Assembly: GCF_020991085.1 (NCBI RefSeq)
Contig: NZ_CP087719.1
Location: 2,872,001 to 2,936,000 of the forward strand
From: Roseomonas sp. OT10
GTDB lineage: Bacteria > Pseudomonadota > Alphaproteobacteria > Acetobacterales > Acetobacteraceae
DNA length: 64,000 nucleotides
Direction: 5' to 3'
Shown: positions 58,695 to 62,328 of the stretch, in pieces
Layout: each line of letters opens with the position of its first letter
Numbering within the stretch: position 1 is the stretch's first letter
Position numbers and translations under genes: made by a program
Notes under the pieces: model-generated
Told to the model about the DNA's origin: nothing
Seen by the model: only the letters and a program-made list of their open reading frames with translations
Databases searched by the model: none

Positions 58695-59438
58695 ATGCCC
58701 GAGACGGAGCCCGCCCCCGGGGATACCGACGGCGAGGGAACGGGCGCGGCGCCGGTCCGCCTGGTCTTCGACGGGCATGCGCTGGAGGCCGCGCCGGGAA
58801 CCTCGCTGCTCCAGGCCTGGCTCGCCGCCGGGCTGCCGCTGACGGAGAATGCGGGCTGCCTCGGCCAGGGGGTGTGCGGCGCCTGCCGCGTGCTGGTGCG
58901 CCGCCCGGGCGAGCGGCTGGCCGGCACCGCGCTGGCCTGCGAGGTGCCGGTGGCGGAGGGGATGCAGGTGGCCTTCCTCGACCACTTCCCCGCCACCCGG
59001 CCGCACCCCTACGACCTGCGCGCGCTGACCGACAGTTGGACGGCGCTGGACCAGATCGACGCCGTCTTCCCCGAGGCGAAGCACTGCCGACACTGCGGCG
59101 GCTGCGACCGTGCCTGCCCCAAGGGGATCGAGGTGCAGCGCATGGTCAACCTCGCCGCCGCCGGGCAGGCCTTCGCCGCCGCCGAGCTGTTCGACCATTG
59201 TGTGCTTTGCAACCTCTGCGTCGCCGCCTGCCCGGAGCATATCGACCCCGCGCATCTGGGCCAGTTCGTGCGGCGGATGAGCGCCTCGCTGACGCTGCGG
59301 CCCTCCGACCTGATCCTGCGCCTGCGCGAGATCGGCGAGGGCCGGCAGCCGATCGACCCGGACGCACCCGGTGCCAACCCACCCGGCGCCAACCCGTCCG
59401 GCGCCAACCCGCCCGCGCAGGCCGGGGCCGCGCCGTGA
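58695..59438 (+). CDS. Iron-sulfur subunit: plant-type [2Fe-2S] plus two [4Fe-4S] ferredoxin-like motifs (FrdB/SdhB-like)
   Basis: 247 residues. Cys 55, 61, 64 and 82 form a plant-type [2Fe-2S] site; Cys 131, 134, 137, 141 and Cys 169, 172, 175, 179 form two CxxCxxCxxxCP cubane sites. This is the layout of succinate dehydrogenase/fumarate reductase iron-sulfur proteins, but the third site is CxxCxxCxxxCP rather than a 3Fe-4S type. The C-terminus has a short repeat (GANPPGANPSGANPP). GTGA overlap with the flavoprotein gene. Proposed to pass electrons between the NuoF-like and flavoprotein subunits. Confidence 0.85.
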   Translation: MPETEPAPGDTDGEGTGAAPVRLVFDGHALEAAPGTSLLQAWLAAGLPLTENAGCLGQGVCGACRVLVRRPGERLAGTALACEVPVAEGMQVAFLDHFPATRPHPYDLRALTDSWTALDQIDAVFPEAKHCRHCGGCDRACPKGIEVQRMVNLAAAGQAFAAAELFDHCVLCNLCVAACPEHIDPAHLGQFVRRMSASLTLRPSDLILRLREIGEGRQPIDPDAPGANPPGANPSGANPPAQAGAAP

Positions 59439-61057
59439 GCCCCGCCGGCATCCCCCATGCCCGGGCGCTGGCCGCCTGGCGCGCCGCCGCCCCCGCGCCG
59501 GAGCATCCGCTGGACCTGCCCGTTCCCGAGCTGCTGCGGGGCTTCCACCCCGACCATACGCCCGGCGCGATGGAGACGCTGCGCGTGGGCGTCAGCGCCG
59601 GCGCCCCCTGCCCTGCCGCGCTGGCCGAACTCCTGCAATCCGACGCCCTGCTGGAGGACGAGGACATCGCCGGCGCGCCGATCCTCGACACCGACGTGCT
59701 GGTGCTCGGCGGCGGCGGCGCGGGCTGCGTCGCGGCGCTGACGGCGGCGCGGGCGGGGGCGCGGGTGCTGCTCGCGACCAAGCTGCGGATCGGCGACAGC
59801 AACACGGTGATGGCCGAGGGCGGCATCCAGGCCGCGGTCGGCCCCGAGGACAGCCTGCAACGCCATTTCGAGGACACGCTGCGCGCCGGCCACTTCGCCG
59901 CCGACAAGGTGCTGGTCGCGGCGCTGGTCGGCGACGGGCCGGAGGTGATCCGCTGGCTGATCCAGGAGGGGATGAGCTTCGACCTCGCTCCCGGGGGCGA
60001 CCGCATCGGCGGCACGCTGCTGCGCAAGACCCCCGGCGGCGCCACCGCCGCGCGGCTGCTCTCCTACCGCGACTTCACCGGGCTGGAGCTGATGCGGGCG
60101 CTGCGCGAGGCGACGCTGCTGCAGCCCGGCATCACCCTGCTCGACCGCCACCCGGCGCTGGAGTTGCTGACGGACGACCGCGGCCGCTGCGCCGGGGCGG
60201 CGTTGCAGGACCTCGCGCACGGGCGGGTGGTGCTGGCCCGCGCGGGCGCGACGGTGCTGGCCACCGGCGGCGCCGGGCGGCTGCACCTGGCGGGCTTCCC
60301 CACCTCCAACCACTACGGCGCCACGGCGGACGGGCTGGTGCTGGCCTATCGCCTGGGCGCCGTGCTGCGCGAGGCGGAGAGCTTCCAGTTCCACCCCACC
60401 GGCATCGCCTGGCCGCGCTTCCTGGAAGGCCAGCTCGTCAGCGAGGCGGCGCGCTCCTCCGGCGCCTTCCTGGTCAACGGGCTGGGCCGGCGCTTCGTGG
60501 AGGAGCTGAAGCCGCGCGACGTCGTGGCCTCCGCCATCCTGCGCGAGATCGCCGAGGGGCGCGGGGTGGTGCGCGACGGGCAGGCGGGCGTCTTCCTCGA
60601 CACCCCCTCGCTGGAGCAGGCGAAGCCCGGCATCCTGCACAAGGGGCTGGTGACGCTCTCCCACCTCGCCCACCGCGCCGGCTTCGACCCGGCGGCGGAG
60701 CCCTTCCTGATCCGCCCCACGCTGCACTACCAGAATGGCGGCGTGGCGATCGACCCGGCGGGGCGGACGGGCGTGCCCGGGCTGCTCGCGGCCGGCGAGG
60801 TCACGGGCGGGCTGCACGGGAAGAACCGCATGATGGGCAACGCCCTGCTGGAGCTGTGCGTCTTCGGCCGGCGCGCCGGGGCCGCGGCGGCGGCCGATTC
60901 CCGCGCCGAGCGGCCACGCAACGTCGGGCTGACGCACCTCGCCGACTGGCGCCGGGCGCTGATCGCGCAAGGGCTGCCGCTGGAGCGGAAGGCGCCGATG
61001 CTCTTCCCGCCCTACGGCAACTACGACGCCGCCACCGCGCGGAGGCGGGCGGCATGA
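59435..61057 (+). CDS. FAD-binding fumarate reductase/succinate dehydrogenase-like flavoprotein
   Basis: 540 residues. After an unusual N-terminal region of about 84 residues comes the FAD motif VLGGGGAGCVAAL (92-97 GGGGAG) and SNTVMAEGGIQAAVG, where Asn 123 stands at the place of the His that binds FAD covalently in FrdA/SdhA; FAD is therefore probably noncovalent. Substrate-side residues are kept: FQFHPTGI (His 320), SEAARSSGAFLVNG, HYQNGGVAI (His 431) and GKNRMMGNALLEL. L-aspartate oxidase is an alternative, but the partner subunits argue for a reductase complex. ATGA overlap with the next gene. Confidence 0.85.
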   Translation: MSPAGIPHARALAAWRAAAPAPEHPLDLPVPELLRGFHPDHTPGAMETLRVGVSAGAPCPAALAELLQSDALLEDEDIAGAPILDTDVLVLGGGGAGCVAALTAARAGARVLLATKLRIGDSNTVMAEGGIQAAVGPEDSLQRHFEDTLRAGHFAADKVLVAALVGDGPEVIRWLIQEGMSFDLAPGGDRIGGTLLRKTPGGATAARLLSYRDFTGLELMRALREATLLQPGITLLDRHPALELLTDDRGRCAGAALQDLAHGRVVLARAGATVLATGGAGRLHLAGFPTSNHYGATADGLVLAYRLGAVLREAESFQFHPTGIAWPRFLEGQLVSEAARSSGAFLVNGLGRRFVEELKPRDVVASAILREIAEGRGVVRDGQAGVFLDTPSLEQAKPGILHKGLVTLSHLAHRAGFDPAAEPFLIRPTLHYQNGGVAIDPAGRTGVPGLLAAGEVTGGLHGKNRMMGNALLELCVFGRRAGAAAAADSRAERPRNVGLTHLADWRRALIAQGLPLERKAPMLFPPYGNYDAATARRRAA

Positions 61058-62328
61058 CGGCGGAGTCCCACGTCCCGCTCGACGGTCCCGTGCTGACCGC
61101 CCGCGCCGTCCGGGTGGGGCCCGACCTCGGCGCCTGGGAGGCCACCGGCGGCGGCAAGGGGCTGCGCCACGCCCTGGCCGACCGCGACGCCATCCTGCCC
61201 GTGCTGGAGGCGGCCGGGCTGCGCGGCCTGGGCGGCGCGGGCTTCCCCACCCACCGGAAATGGGCCGCCGTGGCGGCGCAGCCGGCACCCGCCGGCGGCA
61301 AGTGGGTGGTGGTGAACGGCAACGAGGACGAGCCCGGCACCTTCAAGGACCGCTTCCTGCTGTCCGAGACGCCGCACCAGGTGATCGAGGGGGCGCTGAT
61401 CGGCGCGCTGGCGGTGGGTGCCGTCAACGTCGCGCTCTACGTGAACCCGCGCGAGGGCGCCTCGGTCCGCGTGCTGCACGCCGCCGTCGCCGCCTGGGAC
61501 GGCACGCCGCTGCTCGCCGAACTCTCCGGCGCGCTGGGCGCCCCCATCTCGCTGCGCGTGGTGGAAGGCTCCGGCCTCTACGTGGGGGGCGAGGAGACGG
61601 CCGCCATCGCCAGCGTGATGGGCGGCTTCCCCTTCCCCTCGCTCAAGCCCCCCTTCCCGGCCGAGCAGGGGGTGGACGGCGCCCCCACCCTGCTGAACAA
61701 CGTCGAGACCTTCGCCCATGCCGGGCACATCCTGCGCCACGGCGCGGAGTGGTACCGGGCGCTGGGGCGCAACGGCGCGCCGGGGACGAAGCTCTTCTCC
61801 CTGTCCGGCGACGTGATGCGCCCCGGCCTCTACGAGCTGCCGATGGGCACGCCGCTGCGCGAGCTGGTCTTCGACTGCGGCGGCGGCGTGCTGGCGGGGC
61901 GGCCGTTCAAGGCGGTCTTCACCGGCGGGCCGTCCAACACGCTGCTGACGGCGGCCGACCTCGACGTGCCGCTGGATTTCGACAGCGTGCGCGCCCAGGG
62001 CTCGCGGCTCGGCACGGGGGCGATGATCGTCGTCGGCGAGGGCACCAGCATCCTGCGCAAGACGGCCGAATACGTCGCCTTCTTCGCCGCGAATTCCTGC
62101 GGCCAGTGCCCGCCCTGCAAGGTCGGCACCCGCCAGGTCTCCCGCATCCTGGAGCGCATCGAGGGCGGCAGCGGAAGGCCCGGCGACCTGGAGGCGCTGG
62201 AGAACCTGACCCGGCTCCTCCCCGGCTCCGGCCGCTGCGGCCTGGTGGACGGGGCGGCGACCGTGCTGGCCAGCTCGCTGCGCACCTTCCGCGGCGAGTA
62301 CGAGCGGGCCGTGGGTCGGGACGGGTAG
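61054..62328 (+). CDS. NuoF-like NADH-binding FMN/Fe-S subunit
   Basis: 424 residues of the complex I 51-kDa family. The FMN/NADH part has GLGGAGFPTHRKW (residues 59-70), GNEDEPGTFKDR, GEETAAIASVMGG and LLNNVETFA. A [4Fe-4S] site is at Cys 349, 352, 355 (SCGQCPPCKVG) and Cys 395 (GRCGL). No NuoE-type [2Fe-2S] partner is next to it. It overlaps the flavoprotein gene by four bases. Likely oxidises NADH (or reduces NAD+) for the linked flavoprotein. Confidence 0.87.
   Translation: MTAESHVPLDGPVLTARAVRVGPDLGAWEATGGGKGLRHALADRDAILPVLEAAGLRGLGGAGFPTHRKWAAVAAQPAPAGGKWVVVNGNEDEPGTFKDRFLLSETPHQVIEGALIGALAVGAVNVALYVNPREGASVRVLHAAVAAWDGTPLLAELSGALGAPISLRVVEGSGLYVGGEETAAIASVMGGFPFPSLKPPFPAEQGVDGAPTLLNNVETFAHAGHILRHGAEWYRALGRNGAPGTKLFSLSGDVMRPGLYELPMGTPLRELVFDCGGGVLAGRPFKAVFTGGPSNTLLTAADLDVPLDFDSVRAQGSRLGTGAMIVVGEGTSILRKTAEYVAFFAANSCGQCPPCKVGTRQVSRILERIEGGSGRPGDLEALENLTRLLPGSGRCGLVDGAATVLASSLRTFRGEYERAVGRDG

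Follow-up and report, generated by a model that had tools for sequence, protein, structure and literature searches.

What is encoded by three overlapping genes that lie on a 64,000-nucleotide stretch of contig NZ_CP087719.1 of Roseomonas sp. OT10 (positions 2,872,001 to 2,936,000; hereafter, the window)? In order, their products are an iron–sulphur (Fe-S) protein (P0001), a flavoprotein (P0002) and a protein resembling the NuoF subunit of complex I (P0003). An original prediction, made from the window alone, had read this trio as a soluble complex resembling fumarate reductase, in which electrons pass from NADH through FMN, an Fe-S chain and FAD to the substrate; homology, conserved residues and gene context lend support both to this path and to the fumarate-reductase reading. 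We consider it probable that the trio encodes a soluble, cytoplasmic, three-subunit NADH:fumarate oxidoreductase. This reading is based on the gene unit, the domains and residues of its products, the co-occurrence of the genes, their context and the phylogeny of the flavoprotein.

A flavoprotein with the residues of a fumarate site

P0002 carries an FAD_binding_2 domain (Pfam, E 1e-68). Its best NCBIfam model is that of TfrA (311.7 bits, under the cut-off of 718), followed by that of the L-aspartate oxidase NadB (TIGR00551; 276.8 bits, cut-off 452.75), and the SdhA/FrdA model TIGR01812 gives 270.4 bits against a cut-off of 567.3. Because all of these scores fall below the cut-offs, P0002 belongs, as judged by the models, to none of the three curated families. 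The active-site residues were read from an alignment with FrdA, SdhA and NadB of Escherichia coli. The fumarate site, whose residues serve dicarboxylate binding and proton transfer in these flavoproteins, is represented in P0002 by H320, S336, E337, R340, R361, H431 and R465, with S336 standing where all three E. coli proteins have Thr. At the column of the histidine that links FAD covalently in FrdA and SdhA, which is occupied by Ser in NadB, P0002 has Asn123; both this substitution and the retention of the substrate-site residues had been predicted, and the alignment bears them out. Pro200 falls at the column of Glu121 of E. coli NadB, the residue that binds the amino group. All 19 sequences of the trio family that were aligned (the window and 18 relatives) share the listed residues, including Asn123 but not Pro200, without variation. 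Mutants of FrdA His44 reportedly retain fumarate reduction and lose succinate oxidation, and the absence of the FAD-linking His therefore fits reduction better than oxidation.

The best fold match of the P0002 model is E. coli FrdA (1kf6_A; template modelling, TM, score by query 0.66). The C-terminal helical domain found in FrdA, SdhA and NadB is missing from P0002, which has an N-terminal extension of about 80 residues, for which the AlphaFold2 predicted local distance difference test (pLDDT) is 75 to 93 per 10-residue block. A cysteine within this extension, C59, is invariant in the 19 aligned three-gene sequences and absent from three aligned relatives of the sister clade described below. 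We rejected the identity of P0002 as a quinol-dependent fumarate reductase or succinate dehydrogenase, given the missed TIGR01812 cut-off and Asn123 in place of His, and likewise its identity as an L-aspartate oxidase, given the missed TIGR00551 cut-off and Pro200 in place of Glu121.

The electron-transferring subunits

P0001 matches the Fer2_4 [2Fe-2S] domain and a 4Fe-4S dicluster domain in Pfam. Direct reading gives one [2Fe-2S]-type motif and two cubane motifs, both of the form CxxCxxCxxxCP, as had been predicted; each of the 18 sequences aligned (the window and 17 relatives) keeps all 12 cysteines. The cubane motifs differ from the [3Fe-4S] site of SdhB. Matches of P0001 to curated models are all weak and none is near its cut-off: CdhA is at the top (42 bits), followed by NuoI, HoxU, RnfC, TfrB, SdhB and others. 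The match to TfrB (23.2 bits, cut-off 385) spans profile positions 53-174 of 488, in the N-terminal half. E. coli FrdB is among the best five PDB sequence matches (E 6.5e-06). The fold model of P0001 is of low confidence (pLDDT 72.4, predicted TM score 0.51), and the matches that it gives in a fold search are divided among NuoG/HoxU-type and SdhB/FrdB chains, with TM-scores by query of 0.23-0.29.

P0003 contains an FMN-binding domain (PF01512), an SLBB domain and an NADH_4Fe-4S domain (PF10589), which agrees with its predicted nature as a NuoF-like NADH/FMN subunit; Pfam finds in it neither NuoE-like nor extra ferredoxin domains. Its best sequence match in the PDB is HydB of an electron-bifurcating hydrogenase. 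The genome of the window holds a second NuoF-type gene (C1:1172786-1173919), and the score of P0003 against the NuoF model TIGR01959 (367.6 bits) misses the cut-off of 558.65; on these grounds we rejected P0003 as a plain complex I NuoF.

The trio as a conserved unit

Is the trio more than a chance neighbourhood? We scanned one genome for each of 84,980 species with two peptide patterns and analysed 80 of the 441 relatives that this gave. The three genes stand together in the same order and on one strand in 78 of these 80 loci, and the other two (L123 and L151) are cut off at contig ends. Co-occurrence elsewhere, on which the original prediction had made its reading depend, was thus found, and with its order kept in all but two of the 80 loci the trio counts as a genuine gene unit.

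A sister clade in reductive tricarboxylic acid clusters

The reaction of the flavoprotein is suggested by its closest kin. Among 398 Pseudomonadota genomes, a distant relative of the Fe-S gene (72-106 bits) occurs in 29 besides that of the window; in 27 of these it stands beside a relative of the flavoprotein (43-50% identity), and the other two loci are cut short. Wider stretches were read for 10 of the 29 loci, the genes of L158-L161 and L165 from their sequence starts. In L157, the order is aconitase B, a member of the lactate/malate dehydrogenase family, fumarase alpha and beta, the Fe-S protein, the flavoprotein, two genes with succinyl-CoA-synthetase domains and a 2-oxoacid:ferredoxin oxidoreductase, a gene cluster of the reductive tricarboxylic acid (rTCA) cycle. 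In L158-L161 and L165, the pair is followed by genes with the same sequence starts as the two succinyl-CoA-synthetase-type genes of L157, and 2-oxoacid:ferredoxin-type genes lie nearby, judged by their sequence starts and, for two such genes in L159, by Pfam. The simple choice of open reading frames (ORFs) took wrong frames in places in L162-L164, and L166 is a short contig with no rTCA-type neighbours.

In a maximum-likelihood tree of 47 proteins, 25 flavoproteins of three-gene loci form one group (support 96/98), which 94% of 200 bootstrap trees also recover; seven rTCA flavoproteins form another (100/100), and the two together stand apart from SdhA, FrdA, NadB and the other rows of the superfamily (100/100). 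Some rows of this tree call for care: L033 and E. coli FrdA have long branches, L033 being joined with TfrA-like rows, and the composition of six rows, two from the three-gene group among them, is unusual. Alphaproteobacterial proteins make up the TfrA-like rows, two of them scoring best on the TfrA model but below its cut-off, and the tree includes no methanogen TfrA. Because the sister clade is found in rTCA gene clusters, the flavoprotein family is placed, by homology and gene context, at the fumarate-to-succinate step.

A dedicated NuoF for the pair was looked for in one genome that has it (G100); the closest one there lies in an apparent complex I operon, judged from sequence starts. Three loci have, near the pair, an ORF of some 260-295 aa for which Pfam gives no match (L159:9144-9956, L163:8923-9717 and L165:9462-10346), and similar ORFs were seen by eye in L158, L161 and L164; it could be a partner subunit of the rTCA pair.

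Gene context and the substrate

The features of the trio in the window are listed in Table 1; their coordinates, strand and 4-base overlaps agree with those predicted.

Table 1. The three genes and their overlaps (positions within the window)
Feature	Position	Strand	Description
Fe-S subunit gene	58695..59438	+	247 aa (P0001); [2Fe-2S] domain and two [4Fe-4S] motifs
Catalytic flavoprotein gene	59435..61057	+	540 aa (P0002), GTG start; FAD_binding_2
NADH-input subunit gene	61054..62328	+	424 aa (P0003); NuoF-like
GTGA stop/start overlap, Fe-S gene/flavoprotein gene	59435..59438	+	4 bases
ATGA stop/start overlap, flavoprotein gene/NuoF-like gene	61054..61057	+	4 bases

The trio is flanked on both sides by genes of the minus strand: upstream, Pfam identifies a gene with a YccF domain and one with a LolA domain; downstream lie two ORFs, neither with a Pfam match. 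A 759-aa ORF runs antisense across the trio (window 59009-61288, minus strand); antisense frames of such length abound in this GC-rich window, and we take it to be an artefact.

What lies beside the trio in other genomes? Flanking ORFs of at least 100 aa with mutual matches were clustered across the 80 loci, and representatives of 10 clusters were checked against Pfam. A DASS transporter (PF00939) of the CitT/TtdT family makes up the largest cluster and occurs within 2.5 kb of the trio in 39 of the 80 loci, whereas every other cluster occurs in at most 18. The near flanks (366 kb in all) hold 41 DASS ORFs, a few of them fragments, against one in 851 kb of far flank; 41 of the 42 lie within 2.5 kb of the trio. 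With each locus counted once, the transporter gene is upstream and divergent in 19, downstream and convergent in 11, and on the strand of the trio in the others (upstream in five, downstream in four). All but one of the 42 match E. coli CitT or TtdT, which are annotated as citrate:succinate and L-tartrate:succinate antiporters, respectively. Half (21/42) are 52-57% identical to the closer of the two over most of their length; most of the others are 27-38% identical, which places them in the family and leaves antiporter function unassigned. When 15 genomes of the genus are compared, exactly the seven that have the trio show a DASS match above the cut-off, and the eight that lack the trio show only sub-threshold matches, a coincidence of 1 in 6435 for independent genomes; related genomes do not qualify as such. 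Four loci have an SDF-family dicarboxylate symporter within 2.5 kb, and a fifth has one farther away. In Cupriavidus necator (L113), a fumarase C-type gene lies 68 bases downstream of the trio; the two other members of its cluster are more than 5 kb away.

The original prediction had also stated that neither a membrane anchor nor a NuoE partner is present, and the wider sample agrees: no anchor gene was seen as a conserved neighbour among the 10 cluster representatives (ORFs of 100 aa or more), and a loose scan of the 80 loci for NuoE motifs returned two ORFs in two loci. No conserved gene for a fourth subunit was found among the clustered ORFs near the trio; unlinked genes may encode further subunits.

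Several observations weigh against the reading of the trio as an NADH:fumarate oxidoreductase. First, no NuoF-like partner of the rTCA pair was seen in the 10 wider stretches, and SdhA scores over its family cut-off in all 18 examined of the 29 genomes with that pair, so the pair is not the sole possible fumarate reductase of its hosts. Second, Thr245 of FrdA (gene numbering) is replaced by Ser in P0002, whereas the rTCA sisters retain Thr. Third, 41 of the 80 loci (some on short contigs) showed no such transporter beside the trio, the window has none, the DASS gene of its genome lying about 1.08 Mb away, and the DASS genes at those of its closest relatives that have one, in the Roseomonas group, are mostly 33-37% identical to CitT/TtdT; moreover, common ancestry may explain why transporter and trio coincide in seven of the 15 genomes of the genus. 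Finally, of 76 upstream stretches, 14 have an FNR box with at most two mismatches and four have one with a single mismatch, the corresponding shares of 1425 other stretches being 9.6% and 1.1%; this excess is too weak to demonstrate anaerobic control.

Could the same complex and electron path serve another unsaturated di- or tricarboxylate, such as maleate, mesaconate, methylfumarate or cis-aconitate, imported by the neighbouring transporter? DASS transporters carry several carboxylates, the Thr-to-Ser change lies in the substrate site itself, and a small ORF of one cluster follows the trio in four of the 80 loci. These four loci (L111, L115, L119 and L125) belong to Paraburkholderia/Caballeronia, and the one member tested, that of L111, is of the tautomerase family. 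On the other side, the sister pair of L157 is flanked by fumarase and succinyl-CoA-synthetase-type genes, a fumarase C-type gene adjoins the trio in C. necator, and the characterised relatives of the transporter exchange succinate; we therefore consider another enoate unlikely. We think it very unlikely that the trio encodes a flavin-based electron-bifurcating complex, in which NADH-driven fumarate reduction is coupled to the reduction of ferredoxin: P0003 does find its best PDB match in HydB, but complexes of the HydABC/NfnABC type carry additional Fe-S domains and work with a NuoE-like partner, neither of which was seen here, and the host genera are largely aerobes. An enzyme running in reverse, oxidising succinate or a related compound and feeding NAD+, would suit a member of the succinate dehydrogenase superfamily, but this direction is strongly uphill without a second acceptor, the His for covalent FAD is absent and the genome of the window already encodes SdhA (L004), which makes it highly improbable. 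The original prediction had also allowed an amino-acid substrate; an enzyme like L-aspartate oxidase with NAD+ as acceptor, suggested by the second-best score of P0002, to the NadB model, is just as improbable, given the missed cut-off, Pro200 at the Glu121 column, the separation of the clade from NadB, the dicarboxylate context and the finding that none of the 10 neighbour clusters checked is a gene of NAD synthesis.

Relation to known systems

The original prediction had held that known fumarate reductases use quinol and that those using NADH are single chains. This missed a precedent, as the portion of PMC11508158 consulted describes a multi-subunit NADH-dependent fumarate reductase, FrdABCDE; a 2008 paper listed in PMC12743299 calls the fumarate reductase of Hydrogenobacter soluble in its title. 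The trio resembles FrdABCDE in being multi-subunit, in its predicted use of NADH and in its fumarate-reductase flavoprotein with a conserved active site, and it resembles the soluble Hydrogenobacter enzyme in that no anchor gene was seen nearby among the neighbour clusters examined. FrdABCDE and the Hydrogenobacter enzyme are presumably one five-subunit enzyme, whose genes are scattered in the genome. The trio differs in that its three genes form one overlapping cluster, whereas FrdABCDE has five subunits by name; the two are likened here by their descriptions. The trio thus looks like a compact form of this kind of enzyme.

Thiol:fumarate reductase, TfrAB, is an enzyme of methanogens. TfrA is the best NCBIfam model for P0002 and P0001 weakly matches TfrB; however, P0002 stays under the TfrA cut-off, P0001, at 247 aa, lacks the remaining half of TfrB, and the trio has a NuoF-like NADH subunit instead. 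With FrdABCD and SdhCDAB the trio shares the fold and active-site residues of the flavoprotein, but it lacks the covalent-FAD His, a [3Fe-4S]-type motif and the C-terminal helical domain, and no anchor gene was seen alongside. Another related system is the FeS-flavoprotein pair of the rTCA clusters (L157-L161 and L165), a sister clade whose three aligned members share the N-terminal extension and the Asn at the FAD position, but in which no NuoF-like third gene was seen. The part of PMC6315080 consulted reports that tubeworm symbionts have putative homologues of TfrAB in their rTCA clusters and proposes them as fumarate reductases. For Nitrospira, PMC6606698 describes, in the section consulted, an SdhA/NadB-like gene that stands alone and, at another place, a separate nuoF next to a ferredoxin gene, which is not the trio. 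A search of the open-access literature, with subscription papers outside its scope, gave no description of the trio among the papers listed, most of which were judged by their listing.

Spread of the trio

Many bacteria of soil and water carry the trio. The 80 relatives comprise 38 beta-, 28 alpha- and seven gammaproteobacteria, two unclassified proteobacteria, three Myxococcota and two Actinomycetota. All copies from the last two phyla come from metagenome bins; the actinobacterial ones are 75% identical, and the one placed on the tree nests among proteobacterial copies. These two could be binning errors. The nearest named relatives of the trio genes are in Roseomonas and Pseudoroseomonas species. 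The genome of the host is 5.69 Mb in three contigs. A close flavoprotein (79-84% identity) occurs in eight of 99 other genomes (six of 14 in the genus and two of 45 in other genera of the family), the next match scoring 200.7 bits or less; by motif, the other two genes stand beside it in all eight. The Fe-S gene is present at E 1e-40 or better in 16 of 299 genomes of the family, the window's included. In one genome (G676), it is split into two pieces on contigs C42 and C51, one with an internal TAA, and another (G728) has two copies, on contigs C113 and C223.

Across the window and eight family-level relatives, the trio is retained and the flanks vary: the sole neighbour shared at high identity is a DASS transporter (89%, two of the nine loci), other cross-matches being of 29-37%. 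This variation led us to reject a mobile island with fixed cargo. The flavoprotein also occurs at 63-66% identity in seven PLSDB records, which are plasmids, megaplasmids or chromids and range in size from 195 kb to 2.6 Mb. Of three regions opened, the one annotated copy contains the whole trio under generic names only ('4Fe-4S dicluster domain-containing protein', 'FAD-binding protein' and 'NADH-ubiquinone oxidoreductase-F iron-sulfur binding region domain-containing protein'). On the 195-kb plasmid pL11-C of Pseudoroseomonas cervicalis (L171), a trio with a 63% identical flavoprotein sits after acetoin dehydrogenase and phosphotransferase system genes, a fermentation-like setting. Taken together, the patchy spread and the varying flanks suggest that the trio has been transferred as a cassette.

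Proposed mechanism and significance

If the three products assemble into one complex, with the substrate, direction and physiological role that we infer, the NuoF-like subunit would take hydride from NADH to FMN, and single electrons would then pass through the [4Fe-4S] cluster of P0003 and the [2Fe-2S] and two [4Fe-4S] clusters of P0001 to the non-covalently bound FAD of the TfrA-like flavoprotein, where fumarate would be reduced to succinate with Arg361 as the proton donor. The fumarate/succinate couple lies near +30 mV and that of NAD near -320 mV, and because of these potentials the transfer from NADH to fumarate would be far downhill and one-way. Because there is no membrane arm, no energy would be conserved, and the likeliest role is for this reason the disposal of NADH, with redox balance kept at low oxygen or during overflow and succinate leaving through a transporter of the CitT/TtdT family as another di- or tricarboxylate enters.

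How might such an enzyme have arisen? We lean, with moderate confidence, towards the view that this is a new three-gene fumarate reductase, formed when the two-subunit enzyme of rTCA clusters, or its ancestor, joined an NADH module of the complex I type. It would have spread as a cassette through alpha-, beta- and gammaproteobacteria, possibly reaching myxobacteria as well (known from bins only), and together with a succinate antiporter it would provide a membrane-free NADH sink in mostly aerobic bacteria. In this scheme, the thiol module of TfrB, whose remaining half we take to be HdrB-like and thiol-oxidising, would have been swapped for NuoF; the sequence basis for the exchange is the weak TfrB match of P0001 (23.2 bits).

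If this proposal is true, a recurrent trio of Cupriavidus, Paraburkholderia, Pseudomonas, Roseomonas and others would gain a function, and these cells would be able to spend NADH on fumarate without a membrane. Succinate production would gain a small soluble enzyme, and there would be a safeguard against labelling the trio genes as SdhA, NadB or NuoF. More broadly, it would point to a modular evolution of electron input, in which quinol, thiol and NADH modules have each been fitted onto one fumarate-reducing core.

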